Below, piece after piece: positions 21,041 through 50,400 of a DNA stretch of 64,000 nt. The position numbers and the translations under genes were made by a program. Source of the DNA: Owenia fusiformis (taxonomy: Eukaryota; Annelida; Polychaeta; Sabellida; Oweniidae). The notes beneath the pieces are model-generated. The model saw nothing but the letters and a program-made list of their open reading frames with translations, searched no databases and was not told where the DNA came from. The stretch lies in assembly GCA_903813345.2 (NCBI GenBank), contig CAIIXF020000006.1, forward strand, positions 23,751,936 to 23,815,935, written 5' to 3'. How positions within the stretch are numbered: the first letter of the stretch is position 1; each line of letters begins with the position of its first letter.

Positions 21041-21046
21041 TCCTAC

Positions 21047-21921
21047 AAAGTTTATGTTTTGCTGTTCTTTTTGAAATATTGGGCCTGAGAAATATAAATT
21101 TTCATAATTTGGGCCTACATGTATGCTTGGTGTCAGTAAGGTCCACCAGACGCTACATAGATGGGAGACTATAATCCCTGAAACTAAGTAAAATGCGTAC
21201 ACTAAAAAATTATGAATGTGAACGTTTACTACTGATTGTTCAAAATAAAGCCTGTTTCTAATCAAAATTTAATTGTAAAATGTCCCATGCTAACATATAG
21301 CATAATAGCAGATTTTATGATACATTTTGTCATCCTATAAAGTTTATATTTTGCTGTTCTTTTTGAAATATTGGGCCTGAGAAATATAAATGTTCATAAT
21401 TTGGGCCTACATGTATGCTTGGTGTCAGTAAGGTCCACCAGAGGCTACATAGATGGGAGACTATAATCCCTGAAACTAAGTAAAATGCGTACACTAAAAA
21501 ATTATGAATGTGAACGTTTACTACTGATTGTTCAAAATAAAGCCTGTTTCTAATCAAAATTTAATTGTAAAATGTCCCATGCTAACATATAGCATAATAG
21601 CAGATTTTATGATACATTTTGTCATCCTATAAAGTTTATATTTTGCTGTTCTTTTTGAAATATTGGGCATGAGAAATATAAATGTTCATAATTTGGGCCT
21701 ACATGTATGCTTGGTGTCAGTAAGGTCCACCAGAGGCTACATAGATGGGAGACTATAATCCCTGAAACAAAGTAAATGCGTACACTAAAAAATTGTGAAT
21801 GTGAACGTTTACTACTGATTGTTCAAAATAAAGCCTGTTTCTAATCAAAATTTAATTGTAAAATGTCCCAGCTAACATATAGCATTATAGCAGATTTTAT
21901 GATACATTTTGTCATCCTAAC
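21047..21921. repeat. Three tandem copies of a 292-bp unit
   Basis: The landmark 'aaagttta(t)attttgctgttc' starts at 21,047, 21,339 and 21,631, giving a 292-bp period. Copies differ by very few substitutions and small deletions in the third, so the amplification is recent. It lies immediately 3' of gene A and may overlap its 3' UTR. The near-identical 75-77-codon minus frames inside are repeat shadows. Confidence 0.9.
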
Positions 21922-24310: not shown

Positions 24311-27300
24311 CTGAAACAATAATGTAGTATTAATCGTATTGAAATATTTTTACAATGTCAAGCCATTTATATTCACATTATACCATGCACTCTTATTTCT
24401 ATGCAAGTCTGCACTCGTACAGAGCAAACCGCGCAAATCATGTGATAGCAGCGTTCTATGTTGGAAAGCAGCGCACCCCAAATACAAAAATACGTACTCT
24501 TGACAAAATTCAGATTTCGCATTTGTCTCAGCATAAATGATTGCGTTTTCGGCGGTATCTTTAGCCTCGAATCCAAATGCATTACACGTGGCGTAACCTT
24601 TACGGCACCATGAATCGCACTTCCCCTGAAAAACAAAATCCATTAAATTTTAATTTAAAATAAATTACAATCATGGCAGTCCAAGCACATTGCGATCTGA
24701 ATTTTAAGTAAAACCTGTTTATTTTGAATGTGGAAATAAATAAATAAAATATATAAACTATTTTATTTGTGATTCAAATGAGTCATTAATTTTACAATTC
24801 CTTCAGAAAGATATGTTTAACCTACTTTCATGAGATCCACTGCACTGCACTGAGAGCCTTTAACAGAACAGTCGTAGTCATAGTCATTGATAGACTCGAC
24901 AAAGTATTTCATGGCTCGTTGATGGCTGCACAATAAATCTATAAAATAGTTATAGTACATGTATTTGGTGAAAACTTGTCATGGCAAACATTTTGAATCT
25001 TTGAGAACCTAAAATTAGAAATCATGTTAAGTTTAATTCCTGATCGTCTAATTTAATGTGGTTCCTCATTGATGTATTTGAGCTCAAAGAAATAATTTAC
25101 TATTTTAGCGTGTTGTCGGACCGTACACACCCCTCCCCTCCATAAGTTTGACAGCTAAAAGTCCCCTTCTTGATCCCGTATTAAAGCACGTCTGTGTTTG
25201 AGGATTTAAATATGATCAAAGTGCTATTATCCTATTAAATAGCATAAAGGAACAAAAGAAAGACGCAAATATTAATAAGCTAAATAACCCGCTATCAAAG
25301 GGAGGTTTCAGGTTGCCAAAACTTATAGGGAGGAGTAAAATTATACGCCATTCTGCGTCATTGACATTGAATACAGCACACTTATCAAACGTGATCGAAG
25401 TTAACGAGCAAACTTTTCTATTTCTGTAATTGGAAAATATATCAAATTGTCTAAGGGGTTAGCATGGAGCATCCTTATCAAATAGAAAGTTTGGAGTCTG
25501 AAATGTACCTGAGCATGACACCTCGTTGCATGGCTTGCTCTCCCATTCAACAATATGACGACCATATCCACACGACCTGAAAAAAAGAGAGATCATTTTA
25601 CTATGACCGACAACTCTCTATTGGTAATTTATGCTCACTTGAGGACAGGCAAAATTACAGTAGTGTTACCATAGTCCTCGATGCTGTATTTATTTCACTA
25701 CACTCTCTTATTGTCTTATGACCATTCTATTTAACTTACCAAGACTTTCCATACTGAACGATGTCGAATTCAAAGAAGTCTTTCAGGGGTTTAATTATTG
25801 GAGTATTTTTCAGGTCTGTCCAGATAGCGGCCCATAATTTATCAGCTGCTTCCGCAAATGGTACGCTCAGCTTCCCACGCAAACGCATAGACGCCTTTAC
25901 ATCGCCTAAAATGAAACATGCATTGAAGGTTCAAGTGTATAGCTGATGAAAAACTAGCGATATAAAACTGAGTTGCTTATTTAAAGGCAAAAATATTCTA
26001 AAATTGGAACATTTTTTTGTTTAGCCTGCTCGCTATCTCTGATTCTCTCTTTAATGTAGCTGTCACACCGTACGTATGGTCAAATCGTTCACCACAGTGT
26101 GATTTAGGCAGACGGCAGGGTAACGCATGGATTCACAATGGGCACAGCAAATAGTTCTACAGCAAGATATCCCCCAATGCCAAAATCTCAAAGCTTCTTA
26201 GCTAATTCTAAGAAACAGAAAGATTTTAATTCTTTTCTTCAACACTTTTAACGATCATTTATTTTCCTACATGACAAGCGCTATACCTTAGCTTAATCCA
26301 GAGTTAAAAATCTTTGTGGAGAGGTTTTATGTTTTTTTATGAATTACAATGAAATATAGTTATAGTAATTATGATCAATTGTTTGCTGTTATAATATGGC
26401 TGACTACAACGCTTACCTCCAACACAGCCTATTTTGATGCCAGATGTATAGCAATATGATTTCGTATCGTCCCATCTACTTACACCGCACAAACCAAGGT
26501 TGAGGCTTACTTCGGGAAATGCCGCAGCTATTCCTTTTACAGCCGTTGTCAGAGGGTCAAGCAACGCCTGATTACATGTAGTCCCAACTGGCAACTTAAT
26601 CGTAAGCTCAGCGCGTACCTGACCGCCAGAATTGTAGACACATCTATTCGTTGAAACAAAAGAAAAATCATTAATTTATATTTTAGACGAACATTTAGAA
26701 TATGTATGGTTAGATTCCGAGATACTAAGTTATCCGATGGCCAAAATATGGCATTTGGGTAAGGGTTATCATTGAGTCATTGAAATGGTTCACTGACCAT
26801 ATTCTACGAAAGAATACCATTTGAAGCTACATTTGCCAAACAATCAGACAGCTGATATGTAACCTTGTAAATGAAATAGGTTTTACCTTGTTTTCTTTTC
26901 TAATACAAGACATTATACATGACATTATTTAAAAATAAAAATATAATAAAATCGACAATCAACTTACTGTTGTGGGACTTTTTTACCCCTGCTACACGGG
27001 CTGGAATAGAAAATTGGTGATTTATGAGCGAATTATGCATTGCAAATTTTAATTTGGAATAGTGTTTTCATATACATATACAACTTATTGTTGAATTTGA
27101 AGTGATGTAAAACTGACACGATATATTGATTGGTTAAATGTTAAACTGTATAAAATGAATAGCATTATTTATGGTTTACATGTTTACTCGAAGAGTTTCA
27201 CGGCATTGACTGGGAGAGGCTAGAGTTTTGATAGATGATACTCACTGTTGAAGTGGATAGGCCATCACCCTTACTCGATTTTTCCAATCTTGATTAATAT

Positions 27301-30300
27301 TAGCCAGGAAAGTTGATATTTCCATCTGAGTGGACATTTCTGTTTGTTGGTGGGATTCCTTTAGTTCTCCATTCACAATCAACCTTGATGTCACAAGACC
27401 CTCGTAACATTCAAATTCAGCCTGGGGCACAGTACAATCACCATCACAGTACTTGCCAAAGTTTGTTTTAAAGTCATTAACGACTTCCTTGATGAGGTCG
27501 AGACTGTTGGAGTTTGGACATGACGCCATGTAGATTCGAGTTTCCAGCGCAGATTGTGTTGGCATTAACTGGCATGAATCGCATGGTCTGAAGATTGAAG
27601 TTTAAAGAATGATTCGTTTCATAGAAAACATAATATTCACGAGTTCTAATGGGAACACCTAACACAAGGCGGAATCAAATATAGCAAAGAGTAGGCTATT
27701 ATAAATTGAAAGCTACGTAAAATCCGAAATGAATTTGCTTTATTATTGACCTCGCCACAAATGGGTAATACTTACACTTCTCCATCGACTGATTTGACTT
27801 CCAAGGAGACCTCATCTTTTACAACTCCCAATGTCGTCAATATTCCAGTCCCAGTAATACCTGAGAGAAGATCATCTAATTTCTCTTCCACAATATCATT
27901 CACGTCTTCAAGTCTTTCAGCAAAGTCAGCATTGATTTCAGCACGTGCACTATAAACCCCTGCCTTACAATCAGTATCAAATGAACCGATTGTGCAGTCG
28001 TCACAAAATGCCATGTTATTGTAACTGAATGAGGGTAGGTGTCTTCTAAAGGTATTCAAAAGGGATGTAGCAGCACTGGTGATAGTGGTACCAATAGTGC
28101 TGCAGTCTCCAAACTCAACAGCAAACTCCAAATAGTAAGTCGAAGTAACGCATGTCCTATAAAGAATATTCAAATATTTTGTTTTTGAGACTGGAGATAT
28201 TGCAGTTTAGTTAATTGTAAATCAACATATCTCTCATTATATCTACATTTAGAGTTTAATCTTTCACAACAAAAAGCTGTAAAACTATGCAAAATTTTAG
28301 AGAAACGACAGACATCTCTGAAAAGAAAATTGTAAACCTTGCTCTGTTTGTACAGTCTGATTTGGCTGACTTACTCAGATGATTTGGTTGACTTAGACTT
28401 GGACTTTGACTTTGACTTTGACTTCGATTTGGACTTGGACTTCGACTTGGACTTTGACTTCGACTTGGACTTTGACTTCGATTTGGACTTGGCCGACTTG
28501 CTTGATTTGCCTTCGTTGCAGTCCTTAAATCTCGTCTGGAAGCCAGTGTCACATGATTCTGAGCATGCAGACCACCCCGACCATTCACAATCTTTCGGGA
28601 TATGAAAATGTTGAATAATTAGTATTTGAGGAGTCTTGGGTTCGATATTCACTGGGGTGGACTGACTTTTTACATCACCCCCGCCCTTAGCACACGATTT
28701 CGTTCAGTGTGTTTTCATTAACCAAGGAAAACCATAGAAATATTTTTTTTGAAATTGTTCATTTGTTTATAATCCAATATTTTGCAATCATACAGCTTCT
28801 GGCATATAATAAATAATAATAAATAAATTATTAAATTTTGTTACCTTCAACTTCAACTGATTTTGTTTTGGCTGATTTGGACTTGGATTTCGATTTGGAC
28901 TTCGACTTCGACTTCGACTTCGACTTGGACTTGGACTTGGATTTGCCTTTGGACTTGCTCTTGGATTTACCACCTTTTGGAGCTATTAAACAAGAAAATT
29001 GAAAACTTTTCTCGTGTAAAACATATTTGTACAATCTCATTGTGCATTTGTTACAAACATAGTATAACATACATATGTAGTAAACATATAGTATAACATA
29101 CAACAAAATACAACGCATACATAAAAGCTCTTTTTATTGAAATATCCACTCTATTAGTTTCAAATAACTTCTTAAAACATAGTATATGGCTACAGTACCA
29201 GTACGTTTAATAATTCTACAACGTTTTCATACATGTAAATGCAATCAAAATTTTGCAAGAGTGCAAAGGGATTAATCTTGTTTCTGAAACTTTGAAAACG
29301 AAAAAGAAATACCCAAATTGTTATTATTTTTATCACAGACTGTTGTGAATACAAAATACTTCAACGAGACACAACACTGTAGAAATCCTACCTCGTTTTC
29401 TCCTAGCCGGAAGTGTTTCGTTGTCTTCCTCAGATAACTTACATGTACATCCGGGTTGATCACTGCCTCCATTGACGTAGAAGTCAATGTGACCCAAATG
29501 ACGGTAGAGACCGAGGCCATTGTCATCAGTATGGTAAACATCAACATATTTAGCATCTGATTTATCGAGGCCTTCTTTGCCATAGAAGTATCTAAATGGG
29601 TAAGATGTACAGTCCAGACCTGGAGTAAGAGATGAGCATAATTAAATAGCCGCACAAATCATTGTCTATAGGTTCCAAGCTGTTCCAATCCAATTGATGG
29701 ATTAAGCCTGGCTTAATCCATCTATGTTGGATTAAGCCAGGCTTCACCATGACATTCACATTTAAACTCAAATAGAATCAATACGCCTTGTAGTTTCAAC
29801 ATGTTAGCCATTTCAAAAATTGAATAAATCCTGCGGATTTATTGATAGGTTGCAATGTTCATATTATTATATGCATTCAGTAAATAATTCATGTAATAAT
29901 CTGAAGTGAATGTTCCCACACCTTCTGTCCCTCGTCATCACTTTCTCAGTTTAAGATTGCAACATTCTTTGATGTGATATAACACACCTCCTGTCCCTCG
30001 TCATCACTTTCTCAGTTTAAAATTGCAACATTCGTTGATTTGATATAACACACCGCTAAAATGAATTAGATCCAGCAACCTTTTCATTCACTACATCATA
30101 TAGGTAAATTATGTCTTAAATATTATATATAAACTTAAGATGTATCAATCTATAGGAATAAAGAATACTGTACCAGATATTCGCTCCAATTCTGTGTCTT
30201 TGCTCTGGCCCATGTATCCGCAAACGTGGCAGCCGAGACCTTCTCCAATACAATGTACCTTACTGTCACCCAAATTGTTCCTCTTTATTTCAGCCAATAT

Positions 30301-33300
30301 TCTACCGACTAGTCTTGCATCGGAGGCACCCTGGAGGTAGTCCTTGGCTCCCCAAGTCACACGAAGAACGTTGACATCTCCCTGGTAATGATCGGTGACA
30401 ATGTTGTTTATTTGACAATAAATGATATATATTGCTTTTACATTGATCACGTTGAACATGTACATGTATCAAAAGCATCAAATAAAACAAGCCCTATAAC
30501 CTAATAATAGAAAAGCATCGGTTTAAGTGCTCTTACCGTTTTCAACAATTCCTGTTGCATTTTAGACATCTGCTCATCATCTGTTTCAAGCTCTGAGCCG
30601 ACCAAGATATAGGTAGGATTATTTGCTTCATAATTCTCTCTTAAATGTAAATGAGCATGTATTACATGTATTTGTATATGTATTTGCTAAAATGTCTCTC
30701 AACTACTGTAACATGTAAACGATTTAGGAAGATTTCCTTTCGCTATAGATTCACTATTCCATAAAATATTGGCTGAAGTGTGTGCAACGCAGATAGTTTA
30801 GTAAATATATCATTTCGGGATAAGAATAACATATTTGTCAAACATATGGAATGCATATTAAAGTATTTTAATTTTGAACATGTTTTTGAAAACAAAAGTA
30901 CGTTTGGAATAAAAAATCTTCTAAAAACAATTAAACTTAAAATGCAAAGAAAATATATAGAATATAATGGTGGAGCCATAGAGAAAATAGAAAACTCGGG
31001 AATTATATGAAAACTGATATGATATATATGAAACACAATAAAATCTTGAATCTTATTTATGTCTCGGAATATCATAGACGTTCTATATACAAGAAATATC
31101 CGCTGGATATAACATTAATAGCATTAAACTGTTAAACTTAACGATAATTTTCTTTGTATTTGATCTTGGCCAAGTTTCCAATGTTATATTGAACTTACGG
31201 AATTGTATCCTCGTCCATACATACTCCATCGGAGTCTGCGCCAGTGTGTACTCTAATGTTTACTTTGATGTCAATAGGATTGCGAGGTAAGGGCAGCCAT
31301 GAGTACGGTTCTTCCTGTCGGTAACAACCAAGGTCCTTAAAACAGACCTCTTCGGAGCTCTTTTCCTCTTTGGAGCCGCTTCCGGATTTACTTTTCCCCC
31401 CGCTGCCTTTTTTCGATTTATTTGCGCCCCATCCACGACCCGGATGTCCACTGCTGAACAACGACCAAACTGGATGGATACTTTTTCGGCTGAAAATGTC
31501 GAATGCAATATTTTAAGAGTATATTGCATTCACAAAACATATGGTTCATATTTGATTATGTACCATAATGATTATAATTGATGACCCGATTCCAGTTGCA
31601 ATATTAAGCTAATTTCTTTATGGTATTCGGAAAAAGATTTTTTACTTTTCAATCCATTCCGATTCATGTTCATGATAAGATACAACACATAACATTACGA
31701 CTAACATTACATCAAGTTGTCGACTTGGCGAAATCCTTCAGATCTCTTCCCAGAGGATCCCTAAAAAAAGCTCGCCGTATATTTCTTGTTTCCCTGATTA
31801 ATCGTTAGAGTATATACACAGTTCCTATCACCACTATACTACAATGTCAAACAATATGAGCAATTTTAAACTTACTTAACGATGTAATGCATTGTGTCGT
31901 AAGCCAAGCAGTTATCATCTGGGTAAAGAAGAAGAAGTTTCACAAAGCCTACTTTTCCTCTCTTAACTCTTCCTTTCTTATTTTTCACTTTGAAACTCAA
32001 TACCAAGATCATCGGGGGATCTTCTTCTACTACTTTAGTCTCAATTGCAGAGATAACCTGGAAATGTTGCTTGTTTAATTGATTTGCTTATCAAATGCAT
32101 TTTACAGAAATCAAAATATGAAACACACGATGGCATTTTTCAAACACCGGTTTGTACTTAAACAAACCGTTGTTAATCACCATATCAACACTTTCATAAA
32201 ATAAAATAGCATTCAACAAGAGGTAAAAATCACTTTTACCTGTTTATCTGTACCAGGGGTACATGAACATGTTCGTTGAACATCACTCATAAAACCCTTA
32301 ATGCGTTTTGAAATTAAATCATTACATTCCGTTGTTTACATTTCAATTACAGGGTTAACGTACATGTACCTTTTGATTTTTTAAAATTATACTAAATACA
32401 TTAATATTTATAAAACCTTCAACCGTCTTAGATTGTGTAGTTTAGAGAAACATATTCTCATAAAAATATTCGGCACTCTTAGACGACAGGGGAGAAAATG
32501 ATCAAAGGAAATATGTAAAATAACACATTTTTCCAACCGACCAATTGCATGGGTAGATTAACAACGAAAAAATATAGCACTGCTCGAAAATCTTTTAACG
32601 TAATTAGAAAGGTAAATGTCTTCCAAATCGAATACACACGAAATCAAACATGAGATCCTTTATGTACTCCTCAAATAAATTTTTGAAAACCACAATCAAA
32701 CCTACATCATAGTTTTCGCTTCAAATCAGTTAATAGTGACATCCCATCCTGCACAAACAAATAAAACTGTAATAATTTTCTAGGACAACCAAAGGATAGG
32801 ATTTAGAATAGGCGAAAGCCTCTTGTCCGATCCATTTCGTCAAATTGTATTAATATAATGTATGTTAAACATATAGACGAATAAAATATTTTTAATAATA
32901 AATAATAGTGACATCGTACACCTAAAGTGTACGACGGTATATCTTGTCACTGTACGTTGTCGATGGTTAGGCATGATATATTGCCCGCAGAAATGACGTT
33001 ATTGTACTATTCTAATATGATACGTGACGTCACAATAGCTAGAACAATTGATTTACTTAGCAGTTATGTCCCTATCATTGAATATATGCCTGAGGTCTGT
33101 CACCAATATAGCCCGAGCTTGCGAGGGTTATTACGACAGACCGAAGGCATATATTCAATGATACGGACATAACTGTTGTATTACATACTTTTATATCATG
33201 GCTACGTTATATCAATGACGCCACGTGTCTGTGTGCGAGTGAAATTAGGAAGAAATGAAACATGATATCCCGATGACGTCATAAGATTGTCATGGTAAAA

Positions 33301-36300: not shown

Positions 36301-38709
36301 AGGTGGAAACAAATTTCGAGCCTATAAAACACGTTGACCAGACCAAGTCATTCAAACATAAAATATCGAGTATACAGCCAACCGGTCGAGTCAGACATTG
36401 AATATTTTGCTGTCTCGGGAAATTGCTCGTGTTAAAATACTGTGCTAATGGCATCTACTTACATGGTGCACCGATTCCATCGAAGGTAGCAGTGACTATA
36501 TCTGAATGTGCATCAACTACCGGACACCCTGTAGTGTCGTATGACACATTGACCGGTACTTGGTATGTTAAGCCTGGAAAGAAATTCAGCCATCAAACAA
36601 GAGTTAGGATGAAACTTTTTATAAATCCAAACCACATTTTTAGGTAAATCCCATAAAATATTTTATAGTCTATTAGATTTGACCGCAACCCCCCCCCCCC
36701 CACCTAATATGTGAAACAATGGTTTAAATACTGCCCCGGGTGGTTCTGACACTTTTGGTCGACATCATTGAAAGCCCTTCTTCCCGACTGGATTATTACA
36801 TTACCTTCAGCAAGAGGTTTTTCTGTCGTTTGTCCATTCCCATTTCCATTCCCAATGTAGTCTTCTAAAAAATACAAGAAACGGTCATCTATTACAAACT
36901 ATTGGCGTTAGATGCATGGATATCGAATTAACTCACAAATAGAAAAGACTAATATGACGAAGAAAAAGTTGTATTACGATGAGTTCTTAAAAATACTGTA
37001 AATCTTGGATTCAGAGAAGCCAAATTTCCCCCTTTGACTTTTATGCGAAACGTTTGCATTCCAGACTGTGCATTCTGCACAAGATAGTTACATAATACAT
37101 ATGGATCAGCGTATACATTGTTCATAGCTAAAGTAACAATAATGACAAATATCATATCATGTACGTATTGTAAATGAGGCTTACCAGCAATCTTAGTCTC
37201 CGCTGTGCCAACTACCACAACTGTAAAATGAATAATATATTTTTAAAAAATCATAAAATTTTAGCAGTCCTATTTCTCTTATCTTCTAATTGAAATCAGT
37301 GTTGATGACATTGCAGTTATATAACAGAAATAATCGTCGCCGTCAAATATTAATGCTGTTGGGATTGTTAATGGACTTACAGTAGATGCAGAGAGCGATG
37401 GCGATGATGGCTAGAGCAGTGAGGACAATGGCTGCCCCGATACAACAACGTCTGTTCTTACTAATAGAAGGACCCGACTTGTCTTCAGCAGGCTTTGTAA
37501 CAAACACCTGCGGTTGGGACTGCATTGATTTCTTCTCGTCATTAACATAACTATGGTTGTCCTGAGATCCAGCGTACGTGATATTGTCAAAGTATGACCC
37601 CGATTTTCCACTTACACTTCCCTGGATGTAGAAGTAAAATATCAAATGATTTCTGTAAACTCAAAATGATTTTCTACATTGCACGAGGTATGTGTTTCCT
37701 CATCGAATTTTAATTTACCTTACTATAAAATCAATGTCAACTTAACGTTAAAAAGGTAAATTCAGAAGGGAGCTGAAATTAAACACCATCAATATACCTC
37801 AATATATTTCTGTAAATATATTCGAAAAACATTTAAAAGTGCACTTTATTCACTTCTTTCAAACGGTCATATTGACAAAAAATAGTATCCAAGTCTATTG
37901 ATGGTGTAGGTTATTTCAGGTTACTTTTTATGATCAGCTAGGCACTGAATCCCTTTCATAGAATTACACTGAAACCAAATTCAAGGTCTCAAAAGTTTAC
38001 ATAAATATTCTTTTTTAAACTTTATTCTAAAAGTTTCATTAACATCCAATTCCATATTTTCATGCTATTTTCACATTTTCTTCTTGATAGTTTCAAATAA
38101 AACAACAGTATTTGTATATTAGCGCAAAATGAAGGACCTCGGGTGTAAAAACAGTAATTGGTACCCATACACTCCGATTTAGATGTAGATAAAAATATAT
38201 CTAATCTAATTCACGTTATAAATCTAATAATGTACCATTATAAACCATGTTTTGAAACTTTCACTTTACATAGAGAGACGCCTTCATTCCTTTCCATAAG
38301 TTTGGCAACTTACTTACCAAATTCTTACTTCACTTACCAAATTCTGTCCATGTACAAAGCGATTTTCTAAAAAATCATCAAATTTGTCATGAATGCGAAC
38401 TATTTTGATTAGGAATGGGTTTGATAAAATCCGATAAAAATGTCAAATTGCCAAACTTATAGAGGGTAGAGTATCATTTCACTTGCGAATTTTTCCCTCT
38501 TCTTTGACCTGTATATACATCAATGCAATGGCGAGTAAATAGTTTATGAAATAAGATGAACTGACCGCCGTTGAACTAGTTTGCTCTGATCCATTTACTG
38601 ATACTCTATATGCCTCGTATTTTCTGAAATAGTTATTGTCCTCGAATTCCTTAGAGTATATTCTCGGAGTCTCTCTCCGCTTTGACATCTTAAAGGATTT
38701 ATCGTTCAC
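21968..38709 (-). CDS. Gene A: membrane-tethered multidomain matrix protein with split pseudo-lipase
   Basis: Twenty-nine exons whose phases all agree, 5,268 nt, about 1,755 residues. Exons 5'->3': 38,566-38,709; 37,381-37,621; 37,185-37,220; 36,805-36,864; 36,463-36,573; 36,044-36,180; 35,669-35,804; 35,457-35,510; 34,911-35,033; 34,485-34,627; 31,876-32,057; 31,199-31,453; 30,537-30,639; 30,174-30,381; 29,392-29,619; 28,845-28,982; 28,375-28,591; 27,776-28,156; 27,246-27,587; 26,417-26,643; 25,740-25,905; 25,509-25,576; 24,826-24,938; 24,498-24,625; 23,948-24,310; 23,067-23,542; 22,641-22,832; 22,136-22,414; 21,968-21,984 (stop TAA). Order: cytosolic tail, TM (about 107-128), two unknown domains with polybasic loops, lipase N part (about 470-700), insert (about 700-1,233), lipase C part (about 1,234-1,313), four more unknown domains. 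It is paralogous to the divergent gene at 46.5 kb. Predicted extracellular structural role is inference. The small first exons and the last exon are least certain. Confidence 0.85.
23663..23902. mobile_element. Perfect-ended foldback MITE in a gene A intron
   Basis: 'tcactggtactcac' at the left is exactly inverted as 'gtgagtaccagtga' at the right. 'gttacgctgacg' arms and about 80 bp of further inverted sequence ('cggtaagatatttt' and its inverse) leave a short loop near 23,775. The element is almost wholly palindromic, with no coding capacity. It lies between the exons at 23,948 and 23,542. Confidence 0.85.
24498..24938 (-). other. Gene A: lipase C-terminal part with catalytic His motif
   Basis: Exons 24,826-24,938 and 24,498-24,625. 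LLCSHQRAMKYFVESI aligns to the family motif C-x-H-x-R-(A/S) that holds the catalytic His and the second lid cysteine. It is followed by several Cys (YDCSVKGSQC, GKCDSWCRKGY) where lipases carry disulfides. So Asp and His positions survive while Ser does not. No C-terminal PLAT domain follows; the next exon starts another unknown Cys domain. Confidence 0.72.
25125..25352. mobile_element. Short TIR element, 'cctccataagttt' family
   Basis: 'cccctcccctccataagtttg' near 25,132 is inverted as 'ccaaaacttatagggagg' near 25,317. The same terminus recurs near 903, 14,830, 18,715 and 38,290/38,455, so this is a dispersed MITE family. It lies in a gene A intron. Confidence 0.55.
25509..28982 (-). other. 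Gene A: insert between the lipase halves (Lys-Ser tract, TSP1, three unknown domains)
   Basis: Seven exons, about 513 residues. 28,845-28,982 encodes an alternating (Lys-Ser)n tract. 28,375-28,591 encodes a TSP1-type half module (CEWSGWSACSESCDTGF...R...C) followed by a second (Lys-Ser)n tract of about 20 dipeptides. 27,776-28,156, 27,246-27,587 and 26,417-26,643 plus 25,740-25,905 encode one copy each of the unknown Cys domain (landmarks: FGDCSTIG / CDDC; YMASCP / CDGDC; TTCNQAL / LCG). 25,509-25,576 adds SCGYGRH...KPCNEVSC, like the end of a TSP1 module. All sit between the lipase lid cysteines. Tract length may be polymorphic because codons alternate AAR/AGTC-type units. Confidence 0.8.
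28634..28725 (+). repeat. SINE-like fragment (tRNA-type B box)
   Basis: 'gggttcgatattcactggggtggactgac' followed by 'tttcgttcagtgtgttttcattaacc' matches the copies at 45.63 and 45.85 kb. It is intronic in gene A, just after the TSP1 acceptor region. Confidence 0.55.
29700..30054. repeat. Short intronic repeats: hairpin and 67-bp tandem pair
   Basis: At 29,696-29,748 three copies of 'ggattaagccaggctt' in alternating orientation form a hairpin. At 29,916-30,054 a 67-bp unit beginning 'cacacc(t)tcctgtccctcg' occurs twice with few differences. Confidence 0.7.
30780..31010 (+). pseudogene. Possible LINE tail fragment, antisense in gene A intron
   Basis: The frame has Phe/Lys-rich sequence (FNFEHVFENKSTFGIKN ... 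IKLKMQRKYIEY) that resembles the extreme C-terminus of some invertebrate non-LTR retrotransposon proteins. No catalytic motif is present. Weak call. Confidence 0.3.
31876..36573 (-). other. Gene A: two N-terminal copies of the unknown Cys domain with furin-like loops
   Basis: Copy 1 is exons 36,463-36,573, 36,044-36,180 and 35,669-35,804. Copy 2 is 34,911-35,033, 34,485-34,627 and the first part of 31,876-32,057. They share intron positions and phases and are separated by a short linker exon (35,457-35,510). Each reads: beta-type strand (YQVPVNVSY / DVSYEVEQ), CP, helix, CTGDCSL, a C about 8 residues on, then a polybasic loop (TRRKR / TKRRKR), a strand (VLTITFMI / IFILTIRW) and a helix. RRKR fits the furin consensus R-x-K/R-R in both copies at the same place. 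Cleavage there would free the ectodomain from the anchor unless disulfides hold it. Confidence 0.75.
33061..33175. mobile_element. Hairpin element in gene A intron
   Basis: The arm 33,061-33,100 (starting 'cagttatgtccctatcattg') is inverted at about 33,136-33,175 with few mismatches, leaving a GC-richer loop. It sits in the largest gene A intron (32,058-34,484), whose remaining sequence shows no other exon; phase 0 joins directly across it. Confidence 0.7.
37185..38709 (-). other. Gene A N-terminus: cytosolic tail and signal-anchor
   Basis: Exons 1-3. About 106 polar residues rich in Ser, Tyr and charged residues (ATG at 38,707-38,709; a second Met follows at residue 8). Then comes SKNRRCC and a 22-residue hydrophobic stretch (IGAAIVLTALAIIAIALCIY). 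There is no signal peptide, and the basic cluster lies N-terminal to the anchor, so by the positive-inside rule this is type II with the large C-terminal part outside. The tail has several Tyr (IYSKEF, ITYAG, HSYVND) that could be sorting or phosphorylation sites. A 36-nt exon and a Gly/Asn-rich 60-nt linker exon (36,805-36,864) lead into the ectodomain. Confidence 0.75.
38285..38475. mobile_element. Short TIR element near the gene A start
   Basis: 'cataagtttggcaactt' near 38,297 is inverted as 'ttgccaaacttatag' near 38,449, the same family as at 25.1 kb. It lies in intron 1 of gene A. Confidence 0.5.
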
Positions 38710-39365
38710 TAGTCATTAATGTTTGATACATGTATTTGTATTATTTACGAACTGTAGGAAGAGCACATGAAAGTTCGTCATATGCTCACAAATCGTTGTT
38801 GTTAGATGATAGTAGTTTGAGTTATAAACACGTCTAATAACGTAAACAATTTTAATATTGTGTCCACGTACGTAAATGTATAGGACAAAATGCTTATTTA
38901 GTTTGCTTCAAAAGAAATGAATGCGCACAGTCTGAATGAATGGGCACTCGGTATCAACGTCCTATTTGTAACGCCCGATATTGTAAAGAGATATTATTCA
39001 AATGTCTATTAATGCTTCAAACTTATGAGCGAATATTTTGGATGAAATATGTTTTGCGTAGTTTATAGAATTAATTGGAAGATTTTACAAACATGTCAGT
39101 GTGATTTATCTCATAAATTGATGTCATAAAATGCAATATACTTTAATGTGTTCCTTGAGGCGGTCTTGTGAGACGCACAATTAAAATAATCAGGTGTCAG
39201 TTAAGTTTCGAGGAAGTAATGAACTATAAAGGTTTTGATCCAAAGAATTATGTTATTTATCAATAGAATCACAAACACAATGCGTCTATTTTGTGATGAA
39301 ATCTGAGGTACACTAATACCTTTCACATTGATTTAGGTCTCTTATGAGTTCAAAATTTTGCAAAA

Positions 39366-40040
39366 TTAAGGGTAGGGGTAACACGGTAACTGGTCAACTC
39401 GTACCCAAGACAAGTCGTACCCAAGACAACTCGTACCCAAGTATATATTTTGTTTTGAATCAAGCATATCATTGGACTGGGAATGTGAATAGATATACGA
39501 TCGTACATATTATAATTGTAACATACTGTTCAGAATAGTTTAAAGTTTGAAGAAGACTTTTCGGAAGAAATTGATTTAATTTTGTGACATTTTGAGCTGA
39601 GTGTCAATTTATATTGACTATTATTTTATATTGATCACAGATTCAGGATTTTCGAGTGAAGAGACATATGTTTATAATCATTTTTCAAAATATTGTATGT
39701 TTATGAGTGTTTGGAATAAGTGTCAGATCTAATGTTGTAATTGTATTTATTTATATAAATGTTTGACAAAAAAATGTTGAGAACAAGCGCTTCAAGCACT
39801 TCTTTTATTTAATAAAAAATGCTTTACTAATCTATTGAGAAAAAATGTCGTCTAAATTCAAAAAATTTTTGAGGCTTATTTGATTCACATTATAATATGA
39901 AAGCATTAAAAACTCAATTTTTCCCCTAATATGCACCCATAATATACTGAAAATAAGCTTGGGTACGAGTTGTCTTGGGTACCAGTCGTCTTGGGTACCA
40001 GTTGTATTGGGTACGAGTTGACTAGGAAGCGGTAACACAC
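39366..40040. mobile_element. TIR element with iterated 15-bp end repeats
   Basis: The left end has 'actcgtacccaagac'-type units repeated three times (39,390-39,440), preceded by 'aacacggtaac'. The right end (39,958-40,035) carries four inverted units and then 'gcggtaacac'. No coding frame is present. Iterated subterminal repeats are typical of foldback elements. Confidence 0.7.
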
Positions 40041-42590
40041 TACACTTGAAATAATGCTTCGATTTTTCAGATTATTCGGCAAAAACATTTGCTTCAATAG
40101 GATAAAGACTGTAATATGGAAAACGGGGGGAAACCTCCTTTAAATAGTTGCATATACAGTACAGCTACACTACAATAAACACATCCTACTTGTCGATGAG
40201 ACTATGGCAACTTGAGTAACAAAAAATCAAGAAAAATATTCAAGATAACAAGAATTAAGGCCAACTCAAACATCAAAAACTTTGTGAGAAATAGTAATCA
40301 TACAAAGTTGGGGACTTATTAATTCGTCTCAAATGATGTGGGACATATAAAATCCAGTCTCAAGTCCATACTAGGATCAAAGAGGCCTCCTCGCTTTGCA
40401 AGACCACCATTTTAGTCGAAAAAACACAAATGCAAAAATTATCAAGATTATGCTTCGTCATCCGATCTAACTGGGGAAAAAAGTTAACCTTGAGAGCAAT
40501 TTTTTCACTAAGAATAAAATGTTTTGCAAATCTGCAAATATAAAAAGTACAAGTAATCTACAGCAAACTTAAGAGGCGAGTGCAAGTTGCGTGTACTTTA
40601 AATTAAACCTCTGTATTTGTAAGGACAACATGCCAATAGTTGTGTAATTGGATTTAATACTGAACTTTTTTAATAGTTGAATAGATGGGACTCAAAAACT
40701 AACAACCCAGAACACCTGATATAAACGGTTCCTTTGAGCAAACACAGTCTAACACCCTGCTTTGGGCTATACAGAAATCTTAAGAAGATTGATCGGGTGT
40801 CTATACAAAATCGCGTATCAAATTGAAATAGTTTCAAAATATTTTAAGTTGACAAGAGAATACAATACTTAGGTTGCCGTTGTTTTTTTCATTAGATCTT
40901 AATTTACCACAGTGGAGTTCTTACATTATAAATGAATGGTTGTTAAGTGCCCCTGTATAATTCTCCATCAAAGATGTAAATGTACGCTACTCTCATGGGT
41001 ATCCTCGAAACGCATGGTGACAAACATCCACTCTATACCTTTACTAGAGGTAAAATTAGACGATGTCTGGAACCTTTATCCGGAGAATGTCAAGCTGAGT
41101 CAATCCGAGGACAAAACGTCAAGGCCAATTTTTGTGAAATACTATTTTAGTCACGCTACGGGTTTTTACAATTATATTTTCATTATGACATTTGTAAATG
41201 AAACTGAAATCTCAGAAAACATGCAGTTCAGAAGGTGACAATGTGGCATGGTTACAATATAAATGCCAAAAGGAAAACGTAGGGTCTCTCAGAGAAAAAT
41301 TAATTAAGAAATCAATATCATTTCAATTTCAATTTAATCGAAATATTTTGATTCTGAAATATGTTTGCTACCACAATGTTTCATTGTGTGTAAAATTAAT
41401 AATTTCTGTTCATAAACGTTTGGTAATTGAAACCTTGAAGATTGCATAAAAATCCTCATCATGCGGATATCCCTTTAGGCATTTTAACTCATTTGGATGT
41501 TATAAATAAGCAAAAAGAAACGGAATGGTTTATTTAATGTACCTGACAATTGTATTGATGATATAGAAGGCAATATACATAGAATTAGCAAGTTTGTGTT
41601 AATAATGGTCTAATTCTTAATTGTAGTGGTTTTCTATTTGAAGAAACCTCGAACATCAACATTAATAAAGCATAAAGTCAAACAACTCCAAAGGCGGTCC
41701 ACAGAGTTCACGATGTGGTCAATACATGTATAAGCGTAACATTATTTTTCAATGAATAAAAAAAAGAATAAAAAAAAATTTAAAAAAAACTACAACAAAC
41801 AATAAATCCCAACATAATAATTCAAAACATGCAGTCAACGTACCTTATCCGAAACATCCATTCGGTATGCCATATACCGGTGGTCTGAACTAACAGACAT
41901 CCTTTATCTTATAGTGTTCCCTTATCTTATTTTACAATTTATCTTTTTCTTAGATGATACTAGAAGGATCTAATAAACGACCCTCTGGTTGGCAATCCGG
42001 GGAGAGAATGTGGAAACGATATATGGCAAGTGACGTAAAAGAAAGAGGTATTGTATTGTGTACTATAAAATATGTTGGTGTAAGTTCGGCGAACTTATTT
42101 GTGTTTTTGAATCCATTTGTCAATAGTATCTATTGATTCAATTCACCTTTCTTAGCTTTTGAAAATGTTTTCTTTAGTGGTTTTAAAAAACGCACGATTG
42201 CTTAAATTGAAATGTTTACCTGTTAGGTATATTGGCAATGAAAAGTTCAATGTTTGCAGCGTGTCGCTATGAGATCTTTTTCGACTTCAATAGGGTTCAT
42301 CGAGGTCTACGGAACGCCCTTGTTAACTTTTCGTCCTTAGAATAAACAAACACAAAAAAACTTTTTATCAAACCTTGGTAGTTTTAGTATTCTGCATCTC
42401 TAAGGAAAACATAAAAACAATAAATGGCACGTAAACGTTCAGATCACATGACACAGTTAAAAGACATACAACTTACAATCCACCGCTCGCAAGGATATAG
42501 ACAGAGAGAGAGCTACCACCGTAAAGCTACCTGTTTTAGAAAATTATTCTGCTCTACATAGTCTCAAAAATCACTCCGCCATCTATAAAA

Positions 42591-43939
42591 ATTCTGTTTC
42601 TAACCAAACTTGTAAATGTTTCCTGATAGATTAGTACTTACCCTATCGAGAATAAACCTTGATTCATTTATCAAACACTAGATGGCGCTGCGACGGGACA
42701 GAAAAGGAGAAAGAGCTTTTTATACAGAAAACCAAATAACCAACGGTAACCGCTAGTATCCCTACTCCGGACTATATTCTAATAGTGACACGGTTGAATG
42801 ATTTTGTGCCAGAAATCTTGTTTTTCTTAAACATAAGAGTGTTTCAAGACTTTTTGTCCAATTTAAGCCCAATCGCACCAATAGAAGAGCTTTTATAGCT
42901 GCTTTGTTAACCCCGGGGTCATTTATTTTAGGGCCATGCAGTTTTATACCTAACTGACCATTTTTGCAATAGAAATACTGCTACTCGCTATGGCTTAACA
43001 AAAATTCACAATATTTAGCATGTCAAAACGTTTATTCGCACTTCCATAATGTTTATTGCCAAAATCACTGAACCATGAAACAAAAAAATGGTCAAATCTA
43101 GTCATTTTTGATCAGAGATTACCCCAAATTAGCCATTATTTAGTGATTAATTTTCAGTAAATGAGCTTCTATATTAAATTATCATATCAGTTTTGCATAG
43201 CACTGTTCTTGTTTTAATTACATGCATGTTAGTAACTGTTTTCAGCCATATTTAGTCAGTCTATTGGGTTAAATGTGTCAAATTTGTCATATATTTTCAA
43301 GAAAAATTCAGACACAAAGGAAAAAGCTGTATTACATGCTATGATAATGGCTAAATCCTTAAATTCGGTAATAATTTGATAAAAGCCTGTCAACAACCTC
43401 TTAAAATCAGCACTAACAGCCCTCTTGTGCTATCCTGTAACAAAATACAGGCCAAAAATGGTCAAAACCTGTGATTTTTAGGTAAAAAATGAAAAATGCT
43501 GAATCAGCGAAAATCTAAATTGCTAATTCTTCAGATAATTTGATTTTTCTTAGAGATGCAAGGTACACATTGCTAAGAAAGTGTAATTTTTACAAAAATA
43601 ACGCTATTTCCCACCCTAGTACTGTCACCACCCTGTTGCTAATAGGGTCAAGATTGCAGTAAAAAATCCCATTGACGACCATTATAACGTTTCATTTCAT
43701 AATATATTCATGGGCACAGATCTAGCTCAGCGAAACAGTGCCCAGTGTTCATTCTGTTTCTAACCAAACTTGTAAATGTTTCCTGATAGATTAGTACTTA
43801 CCCTATCGAGAATAAACCTTGATTCATTTATCAAACACTAGATGGCGCTGCGACGGGACAGAAAAGGAGAAAGAGCTTTTTATACAGAAAACCAAATAAC
43901 CAACGGTAACCGATAGTATCCCTACTCCGGACTATATTC
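42591..43939. mobile_element. 189-bp direct repeats flanking about 970 bp (TRIM-like)
   Basis: 42,591-42,779 and 43,751-43,939 are the same length and, by eye, differ at one base ('ccgctag' versus 'ccgatag'). The interior has no open frame of note. The layout suits a terminal-repeat retrotransposon in miniature or a recent segmental duplication. Canonical TG...CA ends were not seen, so LTR identity is unproven. Confidence 0.6.
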
Positions 43940-43959
43940 GGAACAATGTTTTGATGAAT

Positions 43960-44660
43960 TACAGCCATCTTGAAAATATATTTTTGGATTATAGAGCTCT
44001 TTTGTCTCTAGCCCTAGGTATCAGCACCAAATCCGTCCAGTAGTATTTGAGTCATGAAAGATTATGTTTTTCAAAAAATCCGTTAACTGGTATTTGGGTT
44101 ATCAAAAATTACATTATTAACAACAAGTGGCGGCCATATTGATAATAGCGGTCATCTTGAAAAGTTCTTCTTGAGCACAGCTCTGTTATCTCTGGGCAAA
44201 AATCAAATCTATCCACTGGTATTTGAGTTATCAAAGATAAACATTTTAATTCAATTATCATCTTGAATATTTCTTCTCAAGCAGAGCTTCGGTGTCCCTA
44301 GGCATCAGCATATACAATTTGAACCAAATCAGTCCACTGGTATTTGAGTTATCATAGATTACGTTTTTACGAAAAATGGTGGCCATTTTTGGAATTTTGT
44401 CTGAGAGCCCCCTTGTCTCTAGGCATCAGCGTATAAGATTTGAACCAAATTTGTCAACTGGTATTTGAGTTATCAAAAATTACGTTCAGAATAGCGGCCA
44501 TTTTAAAATTTAGCCGCCATCTTGAAAATTCTTTCTCGAGTAGAGCTTTTATGTGCATCAAATCCATTCACTGGTATTTGAGAAATCGCCCGGACATACA
44601 AACGGACGAACGAACGAACGAACGGATGGAGAGACTGACGGACGGACGGCTTTCTCTATA
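43960..44660 (+). repeat. Dispersed repeat ending in (gacg)n
   Basis: Several diverged units with 'actggtatttgagttatcaaa' and 'gcggccat' motifs precede 'gaacgaacgaacg' at about 44,607-44,650. It is the inverse-orientation relative of the repeat at 9.5-10.1 kb. The frame 44,440-44,757 is a shadow. Confidence 0.6.
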
Positions 44661-45598
44661 TCCTCCTCGGAAAAAAATTAATAAATCTTTGGACAGCCTT
44701 ATAAATATGATATTCCGTCAGCTTCATTTCATTGTCGTTTTCCATTGGGTCGAATAAGTTAAAAACAACAGTACCTTGTGAATCAACGTATTTCTATTTC
44801 ATACTTTTGAGAGCTATACTCAAGCTATACAATATGAACATCAATGGTCGTGTCACTACCCTCAAAATGCAATCCAAGTACATTGGTATTGACTTACAAA
44901 TTTATTGACTTAAGAAAAACATAAACATTTCAGCAGACTGAATACCCCGGCCCAAGTCAGCTGCCCAAGTCTAAACCACACACTAAGAAACTCCCTAAAC
45001 ACGAATTCGCAGATAAAACATCCAATACCATCCTGACGACGGCCATGGCCATCTACTACTTAACAAAATGAAATCACGATACGAGATGTTGATGACGAAT
45101 ACATTTACAACGACATCTATAAAAAGGAGATAACCTTCAAACCTCATTGTCAGACAGAACCAAATATACATGACCAATGTCAGATCTGATTATAATGTAC
45201 CGATCATATTTGATGCTGTCGCATTCAGTATGTTCCCGCGTCTCAAGTTTTATTCAGTAAAAGACTATCCTGCACGCAGAGTCTGGTCATACATTACAAG
45301 ATGAAGCTCGCTTTTAAGAAGCGAAGTTGAACGAATGCAAGGGATAGTAAAAGACCCACTGACCGTGTTGTCTGGGCAGTAGGGACGAGAAAAGTCTCAT
45401 CCTCTACAAGTCATTGAGACTTCTTCACAAATGAATCGTATTCCGATCACCCTGGTCTGATCGCCAGGTTTTTAAATCGTACACCAACCACTTTAATATT
45501 TTGCAGTCTTAAATAACATTTACTCGTTTTCCTATTTAAGTAATGCATAATGTCATTATTTTATCAAAATCAGAGCACTTTTACACTTTTTAAATACC

Positions 45599-45985
45599 CT
45601 GCACTCTATTAAACTTATACTGTTTGTGGGTTCGATGCCCACTGAGGTGAATTGACTTCAAGTAGGATTTCATCCGTGTTTTTATTAACCAATACTTTTC
45701 CCTAAGGGGGGATTGCCCGTTGAAAAGTCCACTTGATATTATAAATAGAATGATTGACAACCTGGAAAGACATGTAAATCTAATATGGGGTCCAGAAAAC
45801 AGGATCTATGTTATGCATGGCTGAAATGTTTATGTGGAAGCCTCGGCCGGTAGCTCAGCACTCGCCCGGAAAACGTGGGGTCGAGGTTTCGATTCCCACT
45901 AGGGTGGACTTACTTTTCACATCATTCCTAAGCACAGTATTTCATTCTGTGTTTCCATTTTACTGTTTAGTTTGCACTCTATCAA
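45599..45985 (+). repeat. tRNA-derived SINE-like copies
   Basis: At 45,848-45,905 an A-box-like 'cggtagctcagcac' and a B-box-like 'gaggtttcgattccc' are spaced as in a tRNA head, followed by a tail shared with the fragment at 28.6 kb. A second, headless copy is at about 45,628-45,690 ('gggttcgatgccc'). The motif 'gcactctat(t/c)aaa(c/a)ttatactgt' recurs at 45,601 and 45,975. Confidence 0.6.
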
Positions 45986-46513
45986 AATTATACTGTTACA
46001 CCCATTGCCCATTGACAATCCTCTTAACCTATGAAAGAATCCCACACCAACGCATTTAACGACGTTTCAACGATGTTATAAATTGAGTCGTTGGCCGAAA
46101 GTTTATGAGTTAAACGTACAAGTACTTCGTATGATCAGGGCATGGTGGACACAAAATACAAGATCAAATGAGATTCGTGATCTTGAACATATGGTTTACT
46201 GTCTCAATATGGGCGTCTTTTAATAAACTCTTATTTCATGCACATCAGAGGCGCAAAGTCAAGAGACTCACTCTAAGTTGCCAAGTATTTATTTAGCAGT
46301 AATATATTCGCCTCTTGAAGAAATCATATAGACGTATGACCATTGAATCACAATCACGATCCTAATTACTTTTTATAAACTTGGTTTTATTGTTCTTGGT
46401 TTACTTTTGTTCTCGAGTCGACCTTGTTGGCGTTTCTTTTATACAGCTGGTGTTTTAAAAACGTTTGGGATTTTGGGAACTTTGTCTAGAGCAAGCCACG
46501 ACTGTGTTGTGGA

Positions 46514-47412
46514 ATGGATGTAACGGCGCTGGACAACCCAGCGTATAGTCATCTTTCTCTTGATGATAAAAAGGAATATTTGAAATACAGGTATAGTGAT
46601 TGTAATTTTTTCAATTGACCATGTGAATTAGCTACCAACGATTACTGCAGATATACCCCCTATGATTGGCAAAATACTATTTTTGGACCTAATTTTATGG
46701 GCTTCTATCTTCTGAATTTTCAATCCGGGTCTGATGATATTCATTTTGGCCATCTTTGACTGAAAGGAATTGTGTTTGATTAGGATCTTCTGTGTCATTC
46801 CAGAACCAGCCAACAGAAGAGCCTTGATGATGTTAAATTCGACACAAAATCAGATACCAGTGACCCACCATTCTCTGAGCCAGGGAGCGAAGAGGCTTTC
46901 GCATATTCGTATTCCAAGGACTTGATATCCAGACGACGGACGAAACGAGTACTATGTGTAGTAGTGGTGCTTGCGGTGATCGTCGCTGCGGCGGTTATCG
47001 GAGCTGTGGCTTACGGTATGTAGAGTCGGATATAAAACTCATTTATTTTGTTAGGGATGAAATAAATTTTAAGTTAATATACGTCAATACATAATTTCGT
47101 AATACGTTAAGTAATGCCTCAGTCGCATTTGATCCACGGCCTTCGTACGGCGGCCATAGCTTCCCAAAATCGAGAGAAGTGTTCAGTATAAAATACGGGG
47201 ATAAACAGTGGATTATTTATATCGATTTTGTGGAGCCGTATACGGCTGGCGTAAAGCAAATGTGACTGAGGTTAAAGGTATCTATGGCGATATGGCAAGT
47301 GATTCGAGATTTTAATTTTGCATACATGATTAGTGTTCTTACATTGTAGTTATATATAGCGATGTAGCCTCCAAGAACAGTGGATCGGAGAGTCTGCCGC
47401 AGGTCGCACCAG
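46514..47412 (+). other. Gene B N-terminus: NPAY tail and signal-anchor
   Basis: Exons 1-3. The tail begins MDVTALDNPAYSHLSLDDKK, which contains the NPxY form of endocytic or PTB-binding signal. RRRTKR immediately precedes the hydrophobic VLCVVVVLAVIVAAAVIGAVA, so the ectodomain is predicted outside (type II). For exon 2 I used the acceptor ending at 46,809 (aaccag|C), which keeps phase; an earlier AG would break the frame. Confidence 0.75.
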
Positions 47413-50400
47413 GTATGATCGAAAAACATTTATTTTCCATATTAATCATCCATTATAAGCGGAAACATTAAAGGCACTTGCACCTTGTTACTTATAAAAG
47501 TTAGTTCTTGTTTTTAGAGAATATGACCTACTATGTACCTATAAGAGTGGATTACAACGTATCCAACTGTCCGGATGCCGAAGACGAAGAAAAATTTGTA
47601 AATGACTATGTTGAGAAGGAACTGGCACCTGCATGTGTCAAGGGTGATTGTCGAATTGGAAATGTCAAGTCAGACTGTACTCAAACGGACACAGGTAAAG
47701 CAAGGCGAAGGCGCGCACTCAACAACAACCTTGGAATCGAGTGTGGCGTCGTTGGTAAAGACAAAGATGGCGTTAGTCAAATCGCTGATGACATCCAGCA
47801 GAAAATAGACACAGCTGAGTCCACGTTGGATTGGCTCCAGGAACAAGATTACGGGATCAACGTCGATGGTTCATCGGGTTCTTGTGCGGTATCTGACCCA
47901 GTTCTGGTGCCAGAGGATGAAATAGATTATGTGGATCAGATCGTCGTAACGGAGGAACCGCCCAACACAGGTTAGATATAAGCACAATGTTGCAACCTGG
48001 ATATGCCTTTTGACTTTTTCTTAAAATTAATATTACACTAAACAATTGACTAAACACCTTTCGTGGAAAAATACGTAGCAGTCAGAAGTGCCATAGAAAT
48101 CTACGTTTTAAACTCGTAAGAGCTGAATGAATAATTTTAACAAGATTAAAAGCAATGGGGCGATTAAAAGAGTGAAATATAAAAATCGGAGAGGGATTTT
48201 CAAACCCTGTAAGCCATCTATACTTGAAATAAAAAAGTTAGATGAAAAATTACTTGGTAAATAAATGAAAAATCAATTAATACTGCGGCAAATTTGCACA
48301 CGTGTATCTAGGCATGAATAAATTAAAATCTTTTTTTATTTCAACTGATTTGTATTTGAGTTTGGTTTTATTAAGTTTACTTTAACTAGATCATCGTTGG
48401 TTCTTGTCTCTATCAATATCAAAAATTGATTAAAGCAAAATGTGATCAGTCGATTGCATTTAATAGTTTATGGCGTACTGTGTGCAGATTGAGTTTAAAG
48501 CATATCGATAGATACATAAAATGTACACTAATCTTTGCTTTACAGGCTGTCAAGTGATTTTATTTGTATTTCATTAATTGTTTGAATAAACAATAAAATC
48601 AGTTTTTTTGCGGAATGCCATGTCGAGTATGATGATATGCGTAAATCATTCTTTCCAAACTCCAATTTGTCCAACTTGTCCCAATGTGCTGATGAGATCA
48701 TTTAAATGATATTTATCAATAAGATCGCGGCAGTCACGAAATCATCCACAATCCTCGATGGACAATTAAATGAATAAATGTTTAAGTGGGGGTGGTCATG
48801 TTACATGTTATTTCAGGCCAGGGGAAGTTATAACTGTTTTATTAATCATAATGTGTTCCGATCGAAAACGATGTCATGTTCTTTACATTAGGCCATAAGA
48901 AGTAGATTTTTTGTTTTGCGTCTTGGCAAAATCCAAATCATGCAAGGGTACAATGAAAAAAACACAAACTCAAGAAAAAACACAAACTTGTTTGATGAGA
49001 AATGTATACACTTCATGGGCATAGAAGGGATGATATACCAATTTGTAGTGATTACAAACACATATCTATACATTTTATACAATATATTTAAACATATTGT
49101 TATTATTCAAGGGAAAAAAATAAGAAAAAACACAATGTATGCCAAGTTATCAATAACACAGTCAATATTGACGCATGTCAAATTATACGCCATTTTGTCT
49201 AATTCTGATTGAACGAAAACCGATGGTACTTTCAGACCCTTGTGATTGCTATTTGAATGTGTTTGTTTTTTCTGATTTACTAAAAATCATGGAAACAAGG
49301 GGACGCAAAACAAAGAATCTTCTTCTTAAGGCCTTACGTTAATAAGACAATAGTAAGAAAATTATTTAAGGAATTTCTACTTTAAATACATTTTACTCAT
49401 ATATTATTAAAATGTACTTTTTCTATCATTTTAGAATGTCTTGGTGTTATCGTGGATTGGTATATTCCCGATGTTATGGACGACACGAAATATTACCAAT
49501 GTGTAGACGGGATGACAATACAAAGAGAGTGTGCCCCTGGATCTTGTGTTCCGCTTGATTTCGTCGCTGGAGAGAATCTTCCATGCTCAGTGACCTGTGG
49601 TCAAATTCCAGTTACAGACTCAACAGAAAGCCCAGAAGTAACTGATTCGCCTGAAAGACCAGATACAACAGAGTCGCCTGAAAGTCCACAAGTAACTGAA
49701 TCGATTGAAAGTCCGGAAGTAACAGAGTCCCCTGAAACTTCAGAAGTAACTGAGTCGCCTGAAAGTCTAGAAGTAACTGAGTCGTCAGAAAGTCAAGAGA
49801 GTACAGATTCGCCAGAAAATGGTATGATTATTGGATGGAAGAAATACGCACGTGCTTTTAAAACGTTAAGATTTAATTTTCAATTGTCTAAATCATATTT
49901 TTAGATTGTTTGGGAGTATCTGGAAATTGGTTTATCAAAGATATTTTCGACAATACAAAATTCTATCAATGTGAGTATGGGTTACCTGTCCATAGGGATT
50001 GTGCTCCGGGAAGTTGCGTACCCTTGTTCTTCGTCGCAGGGGAGGAGAATCCATGTACTGAGATATGTGATCAAGTCCCTGTGACTGATTTACCAGAAAG
50101 TCCAGAAAGTACAGATGCACCAATAAGCTCAGAAAGTACAGCTTCCCCGGGAAGTCCAGAAAGTACTGATTCGCCAGAAAGCACTGAAAGTACAGAATCA
50201 CCAGAAAATGGTATAAATGGGTACCGTTTAAAAATAGTGCAAAATACTAAAAATGTAATATTTTTACAAACATACGCATGCGCTTTATACACGTTTAGAT
50301 TTCATTTCATCAATTTATCTAAATTATTTTATAGAATGTTTGGGCGTAACCGAAAACTGGTTTCTCAAAGATTTATTTGACAATACTAAATTCTATCAAT

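Follow-up and report, generated by a model that had tools for sequence, protein, structure and literature searches.

A predicted multidomain block in the lid of a pancreatic-lipase-family domain without the catalytic serine: gene A of Owenia fusiformis and its divergent neighbour, gene B

Pancreatic lipase and its relatives PLRP1 and PLRP2 (PF00151; PDB 1eth, 2ppl, 1lpa, 1bu8) are the closest described systems for two genes, here called A and B, in a 64,000-nucleotide stretch of the annelid Owenia fusiformis (assembly GCA_903813345.2, contig CAIIXF020000006.1, positions 23,751,936 to 23,815,935 of the forward strand; hereafter the window, numbered from its first letter). A and B resemble these lipases in having a homologous catalytic domain, the Asp and His motifs and the place of a cysteine-bounded lid, but they carry Gly instead of the nucleophilic Ser and differ in their stem and tail domains. 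Moreover, the lid of 1eth, counted on the alignment, has 23 residues, in agreement with the two dozen or so that an earlier sequence-only reading of gene A had given for the family, whereas in the gene models that of A has 545 and that of B 1,103. Re-use of such a fold without catalysis has precedents. Insect yolk proteins are members of the lipase family in which Gly replaces the catalytic Ser (the literature searched gave no passage confirming this), and unlike A and B they are not known to have a large lid insert, membrane anchor, TSP1 or CBM14. Neuroligins and thyroglobulin are extracellular cholinesterase-like pseudoenzymes with an alpha/beta-hydrolase fold; they belong to another hydrolase family and are not known to have a block inserted at the lid. 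An architecture with such a lid insert was not found in the open-access PMC literature that we searched.

Gene A encodes, on the minus strand, a lipase domain split at its lid. The sequence-only reading had placed lipase landmarks, RRKR, two (Lys-Ser)n tracts, a TSP1 first half, Cys domains and LLCSHQRAMKYF on one continuous, phase-consistent exon chain; all of these lie where they had been placed, and the chain, with GT-AG junctions and in phase, extends both ways to 30 exons. The gene and the two lipase pieces are as follows.

38688-21968, minus strand: gene A, 30 exons, 1,760 residues; GT-AG at 29/29 introns, phases fit, single terminal stop
31489-29392, minus strand: lipase N-half of gene A, exons 31489-31199, 30639-30537, 30381-30174 and 29619-29392; Pfam Lipase 29-242, 122.1 bits
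24938-24498, minus strand: lipase C-half of gene A, two exons, with the catalytic-His motif CSHQRAMKYF; Pfam Lipase 261-336, 26.2 bits

Since the two Pfam matches are complementary, only the lid is absent between the pieces. The C-half alone falls slightly below the family cut-off (27 bits); joined without the insert, the pieces give one Pfam Lipase match of 156.9 bits over positions 30-336 of 336, and against the PDB they match pancreatic lipase 1eth (E 2.5e-30) as well as other pancreatic-lipase-type structures. The lid starts at Cys696 and ends at Cys1242, with RRKR at residue 711 (PARRKR), before the insert. An insert of about 530 residues had been claimed at this place; the place holds, and the length is corrected to 524 residues (715-1238) within the 545 between the bounding cysteines. 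The complementary Pfam coverage, the phase-1 position of the lid intron and a like split with other content in gene B (the last two set out below) support, at the level of the gene models, the claim of a block of several domains within the lid of a pancreatic-lipase-family domain.

The nucleophile elbow reads GEGLG in gene A and GYGIG in gene B, so that Gly takes the place of the catalytic Ser in both. The other two motifs are retained, GLD and CSH in A (aligned to 1eth) and GLD and CNH in B (by similarity to A). Across the genome (498 Mb in 525 contigs), Ser is present in 11/11 of the other lipase elbow motifs found; 17 lipase loci were fetched for this survey, and six of them (L006, L013-L016, L018) gave no match to the elbow pattern. 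On these features we regard the domains of A and B as homologues within the Lipase family PF00151 and do not class them as working lipases.

Three features go beyond the earlier reading, namely the loss of the catalytic Ser, the split repeated in gene B and a membrane stem. Gene B lies on the plus strand and continues past the window end to at least contig position 23821040 (36 exons read). Its order is a membrane stretch, a stem, 18 CBM14, a Ser tract, the lipase N-half, RIKR and then the lid filling, which comprises three CBM14, a TSP1 first half, poly-Ser, two CBM14, SKES repeats and EWQFERCNVDSC, followed by ILCNHRRAIDYF.

46514-63337, plus strand: gene B inside the window, with anchor, stem domain, 18 CBM14, lipase N-half and start of the insert; 36 exons, 3,391 open codons, phases fit
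58675-60591, plus strand: lipase N-half of gene B, GYGIG elbow, RIKR in the lid (elbow survey, gene model)
60835-63337, plus strand: window part of the gene B lid insert, with three CBM14, TSP1 first half and poly-Ser; two CBM14, SKES repeats and the tail follow in the DNA past the window end (L001)

When the His part of gene A was used as a genome query, it returned A itself, gene B (E 0.016, plus strand, 5 kb past the window end) and a weak match on C9 (E 0.29). CBM_14 scored 22.6 bits (cut-off 22.1) for the one gene B unit scanned, the total of 23 units being assigned by similarity. A and B thus have in common the split, TSP1-like ends of the insert, the absence of the nucleophilic Ser and related stem domains, and differ in the filling. 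The 18 CBM14 exons before the gene B lipase (window 49435-57610, plus strand) are in many cases nearly identical and have Thr/Ser/Pro/Glu-rich linkers.

In gene A the filling is made up of these parts.

28982-28845, minus strand: Lys-Ser tract 1 (gene model)
28591-28375, minus strand: TSP1 first half, then Lys-Ser tract 2; TSP_1 23.8 bits over 2-28 of 49
28156-25740, minus strand: Cys-bearing alpha/beta domains, exons x7, x8, x8b, x9 and x10 (x8 structure model; likeness of x8 to x14)
25576-25509, minus strand: TSP1-like tail EWESKPCNEVSC; place and pattern as in EWQFERCNVDSC of gene B, no gain in hidden Markov model score

The Lys-Ser tracts carry net charges of +17 and +18. The first-half pattern of TSP1, W-x-x-W-x-x-C...C-x-x-G...R...C, is present in both genes (TSP_1 score 23.8 bits for A and 33.8 for B, against a cut-off of 21.6), and the TSP1-like tail ends the insert of gene A directly before the His exon.

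Outside the lipase domain, gene A has a candidate membrane anchor and two stem domains on one side and a run of further domains on the other.

38688-38599, minus strand: first exon of gene A, prediction only (ATG and donor)
37621-37381, minus strand: exon with the strongest hydrophobic stretch, residues ~93-113, putative type II anchor (19-residue hydropathy 3.0 at residue 95, next best 1.66)
36573-35669, minus strand: stem domain N1, three exons, RRKR at residue 201; 37% identical to N2 and 30% to the gene B stem
35033-31876, minus strand: stem domain N2, exons 35033-34911, 34627-34485 and 32057-31876, RRKR at residue 351 (alignment to N1)
24310-21968, minus strand: post-lipase Cys-bearing alpha/beta domains and stop, exons x14-x18 (gene model; x14 structure model)

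N1, N2 and the stem domain of gene B have four Cys in common and carry RRKR, KRRKR or ARRRR at one aligned place, and a genome search with N1 matched the gene B stem at E 4.8e-6. Exon x8 of the insert and the post-lipase exon x14 are 38% identical over 53 residues, and both were modelled, with modest confidence, as beta-alpha-beta-beta-alpha-beta (predicted local distance difference test (pLDDT) 76 and predicted template modelling score (pTM) 0.59 for x8; 72 and 0.62 for x14). The matches listed in fold searches with these models were general ferredoxin-like folds; no SEA domain appeared among the best 50 listed per search, a result that excludes nothing. The 11 Cys domains that we delimited in A and B have two invariant and two nearly invariant Cys. 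Profiles of the stem, insert and tail domains match one another weakly (probabilities 13.4, 2.4 and 1.6%), so that one common family of Cys domains rests on the Cys pattern, the x8-x14 similarity and the two modest fold models. A profile search of the PDB with the 11 domains gave no convincing match (best E 0.28), the post-lipase open reading frames of gene A hit no Pfam entry even with E values as high as 1 allowed, and genome queries with N1, x8, x14 and the gene B stem gave, among the best candidates scored, no convincing match beyond A and B themselves.

The inserts lie at an intron position that ordinary lipase genes of the same genome also have. Of the 17 fetched loci, 11 were inspected at the lid, and nine of these have a phase-1 donor there; the acceptor is likewise phase 1 in all five cases in which it was located, only the donor having been found in L003, L006, L009 and L019. 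L011 and L012 have no lid intron and a lid of four residues. The inserts of A and B sit at this position, phase 1 in and phase 1 out, and the insertion of exons at an old lid intron is the simplest account of their origin: exons with phase-1 ends would have entered the pre-existing phase-1 lid intron, and the fillings of A and B would later have diverged. An R-X-K/R-R motif also stands shortly before the lid donor in four loci that carry the Ser, L003, L004, L005 and L008 (RAKR, RRKRKKR, REKR), of which L003 and L004 are near copies; this suggests that the cleavage-like site in the lid is probably older than the insert. The same motif in ordinary Ser-bearing lipases hints that furin-type cleavage of the lid may occur beyond A and B. 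Lid length varies widely among the loci, and that of L010 has 49 residues between the cysteines.

We consider it likely, from the predicted products, that A and B encode membrane-anchored extracellular proteins with a catalytically dead domain of the pancreatic-lipase family at their centre, in which a large insert of several domains takes the place of the lid. In each, one strong hydrophobic stretch lies behind basic residues and is followed by extracellular-type domains, which suggests type II anchors, and the products have the appearance of type II membrane precursors that bear furin-like sites in stem and lid. Such a precursor would be held in the membrane by its N-terminal anchor, and a furin-type protease may cut the stem domains and, at the start of the lid, after RRKR. 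Cleavage of the stem might shed the ectodomain, by analogy with furin-cut SEA domains, and cleavage of the lid at RRKR or RIKR would yield a two-chain protein with its pieces joined by the lid disulfide and the hydrolase core. Since Gly occupies the nucleophile position, the core is most likely a scaffold, which would no longer catalyse and could present the insert as a disulfide-clamped module for contacts with matrix. These contacts might be made in A by the polycationic Lys-Ser tracts and in B by chitin-binding parts and Ser-rich tracts that may be phosphorylated, and a matrix or adhesive role of the two proteins is plausible.

Two described systems bear on parts of this proposal. Furin cleaves the SEA domains of both GPR126 and Notch2 at a site that lies between strands 2 and 3 (PMC6954182), and the likeness would consist in a predicted ferredoxin-like alpha/beta domain with a putative furin-type site; in contrast to these, the pieces of A and B scanned gave no Pfam SEA match, their domains have a four-Cys pattern, and in A similar domains also occur in the lid and after the lipase. 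The cement proteins of sabellariid tubeworms are rich in phosphoserine, FAM20C being described as phosphorylating S-x-E sites and poly-Ser (PMC12621633), and the gene B insert is alike in having 64 S-x-E sites, against 3 in the insert of A, and a poly-Ser tract. Unphosphorylated, the insert of B is slightly basic (net +8). The word lipase is absent from the main text of that paper, and A and B are compared with the cement proteins by sequence features only.

Several results weigh against the proposed reading. The joined lipase pieces of gene B reach 132.9 bits, but in two stretches. Joining the TSP1 ends lengthens the match to 2-49 of 49 in both genes, but the score drops in A (22.5 vs 23.8 bits) and gains only 1 bit in B (34.8 vs 33.8). 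A genome search with the gene B stem found only itself and not the stems of gene A. The TSP1 half of gene B scores better against numerous TSP1 units elsewhere in the genome (best E 5.5e-5, on C1) than against that of A (E 0.0245), with 150 matches scored out of 239 candidates. In the lipase tree, built from 11 rows and 127 columns with gene A as anchor, A and B are sisters in 18% of bootstrap trees, and a joint clade is not rejected (P value of the approximately unbiased test, p-AU, 0.292); six loci that filled no more than 60% of the columns were left out, L014 and L015 gave no row, and the row of L019 is partly mis-anchored in its first half. A single insertion event for both genes is thus favoured by the stem domain and the change from Ser to Gly and not by the TSP1 halves, and the tree neither supports nor rejects it. 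A shared origin of the TSP1 halves was considered separately, and the genome search does not support it.

Splicing could alter what the inserts mean. A junction of x4 with x12 would be in frame (phase 1 on both sides) and would leave a lid of 21 residues, in line with the 19 of L008 and the 21 of L004 and L007, and skipping would be in frame in gene B too, with 45 residues left; this also counts against an obligatory insert. Some transcripts may accordingly join x4 to x12 and have a lid of ordinary length while others keep the insert as an alternatively spliced cassette, an explanation compatible with ours that we hold to be possible, if doubtful, given that in both A and B a similar TSP1-like tail ends the insert immediately ahead of the His exon, as one might expect if the joined form is retained. 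The same in-frame junction would leave the lipase domain intact if the insert exons were instead a separate gene, nested within the lid intron of a host lipase gene and on the same strand, and the open frame that runs into x5 (28831-29133) does contain an ATG. Two separate genes of this kind seem improbable, since the insert fits the host chain with phase 1 in and phase 1 out, gene B repeats the arrangement with other content, and x8 resembles the post-lipase x14 in sequence and in modelled topology.

The retained Asp and His motifs would suit a lipase domain that still acts, either with another nucleophile or as a lipid binder, the insert then being an oversized regulatory lid; with Gly at the nucleophile in both genes we give this very little weight, lipid binding without catalysis remaining compatible with that residue. 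The possibility that we credit least is an artefact of the gene model or assembly, or a decaying pseudogene. The first exon is predicted only, the polypyrimidine tract at the acceptor of x2 is poor, and eight of the 30 exons of gene A (e1, e10, x5, x6, x8, x11, x12 and x18) have a per-codon score no higher than that of the best intronic open run (0.17), which weighs against our model also. Yet in 27/30 exons the claimed frame scores best of six on codon usage (trained on other exons and part of gene B), the exceptions being the Lys-Ser repeats of x5 and x6 and the 17-base last exon; there are 0 N bases in the window and 0 in L001, 1,760 and 3,391 codons run without an internal stop, and two separate genes agree.

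If the transcript is as modelled, gene A would clearly exemplify the entry of an entire block of exons into an enzyme loop of defined function, ordinary relatives from the same genome still showing the probable recipient intron, phase included, and two different fillings standing next to each other. On the same condition, the pair would allow one to ask how such a fold copes with 500 to 1,100 residues in its lid, and whether the loss of catalysis preceded or followed the insert. We also put forward, as a speculation that is more probably wrong than right by a wide measure, that A and B are partner scaffolds, each with a dead lipase whose lid presents a module opposite in charge to that of the other, A through its Lys-Ser tracts as a polycation and B through its S-x-E and poly-Ser tracts as a FAM20C-phosphorylated polyanion with chitin binding; the two scaffolds might co-assemble, once shed and cleaved in the lid, into a tube, cuticle or adhesive matrix. 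Were this so, insertion at the lid intron would be a route from lipase to display scaffold.

Finally, A and B are divergent, with predicted starts ~7.8 kb apart (window 38689-46513), so that shared regulation could exist. A 292-bp unit in three tandem copies (21041-21919) lies just past the stop of gene A, and a 66-bp unit in about two copies (29917-30054) lies in the intron between lipase exons x3 and x4. Elsewhere in the window, positions 4023-5492 on the plus strand encode in a single frame an FMRFamide precursor with 23 copies of FMRFG.

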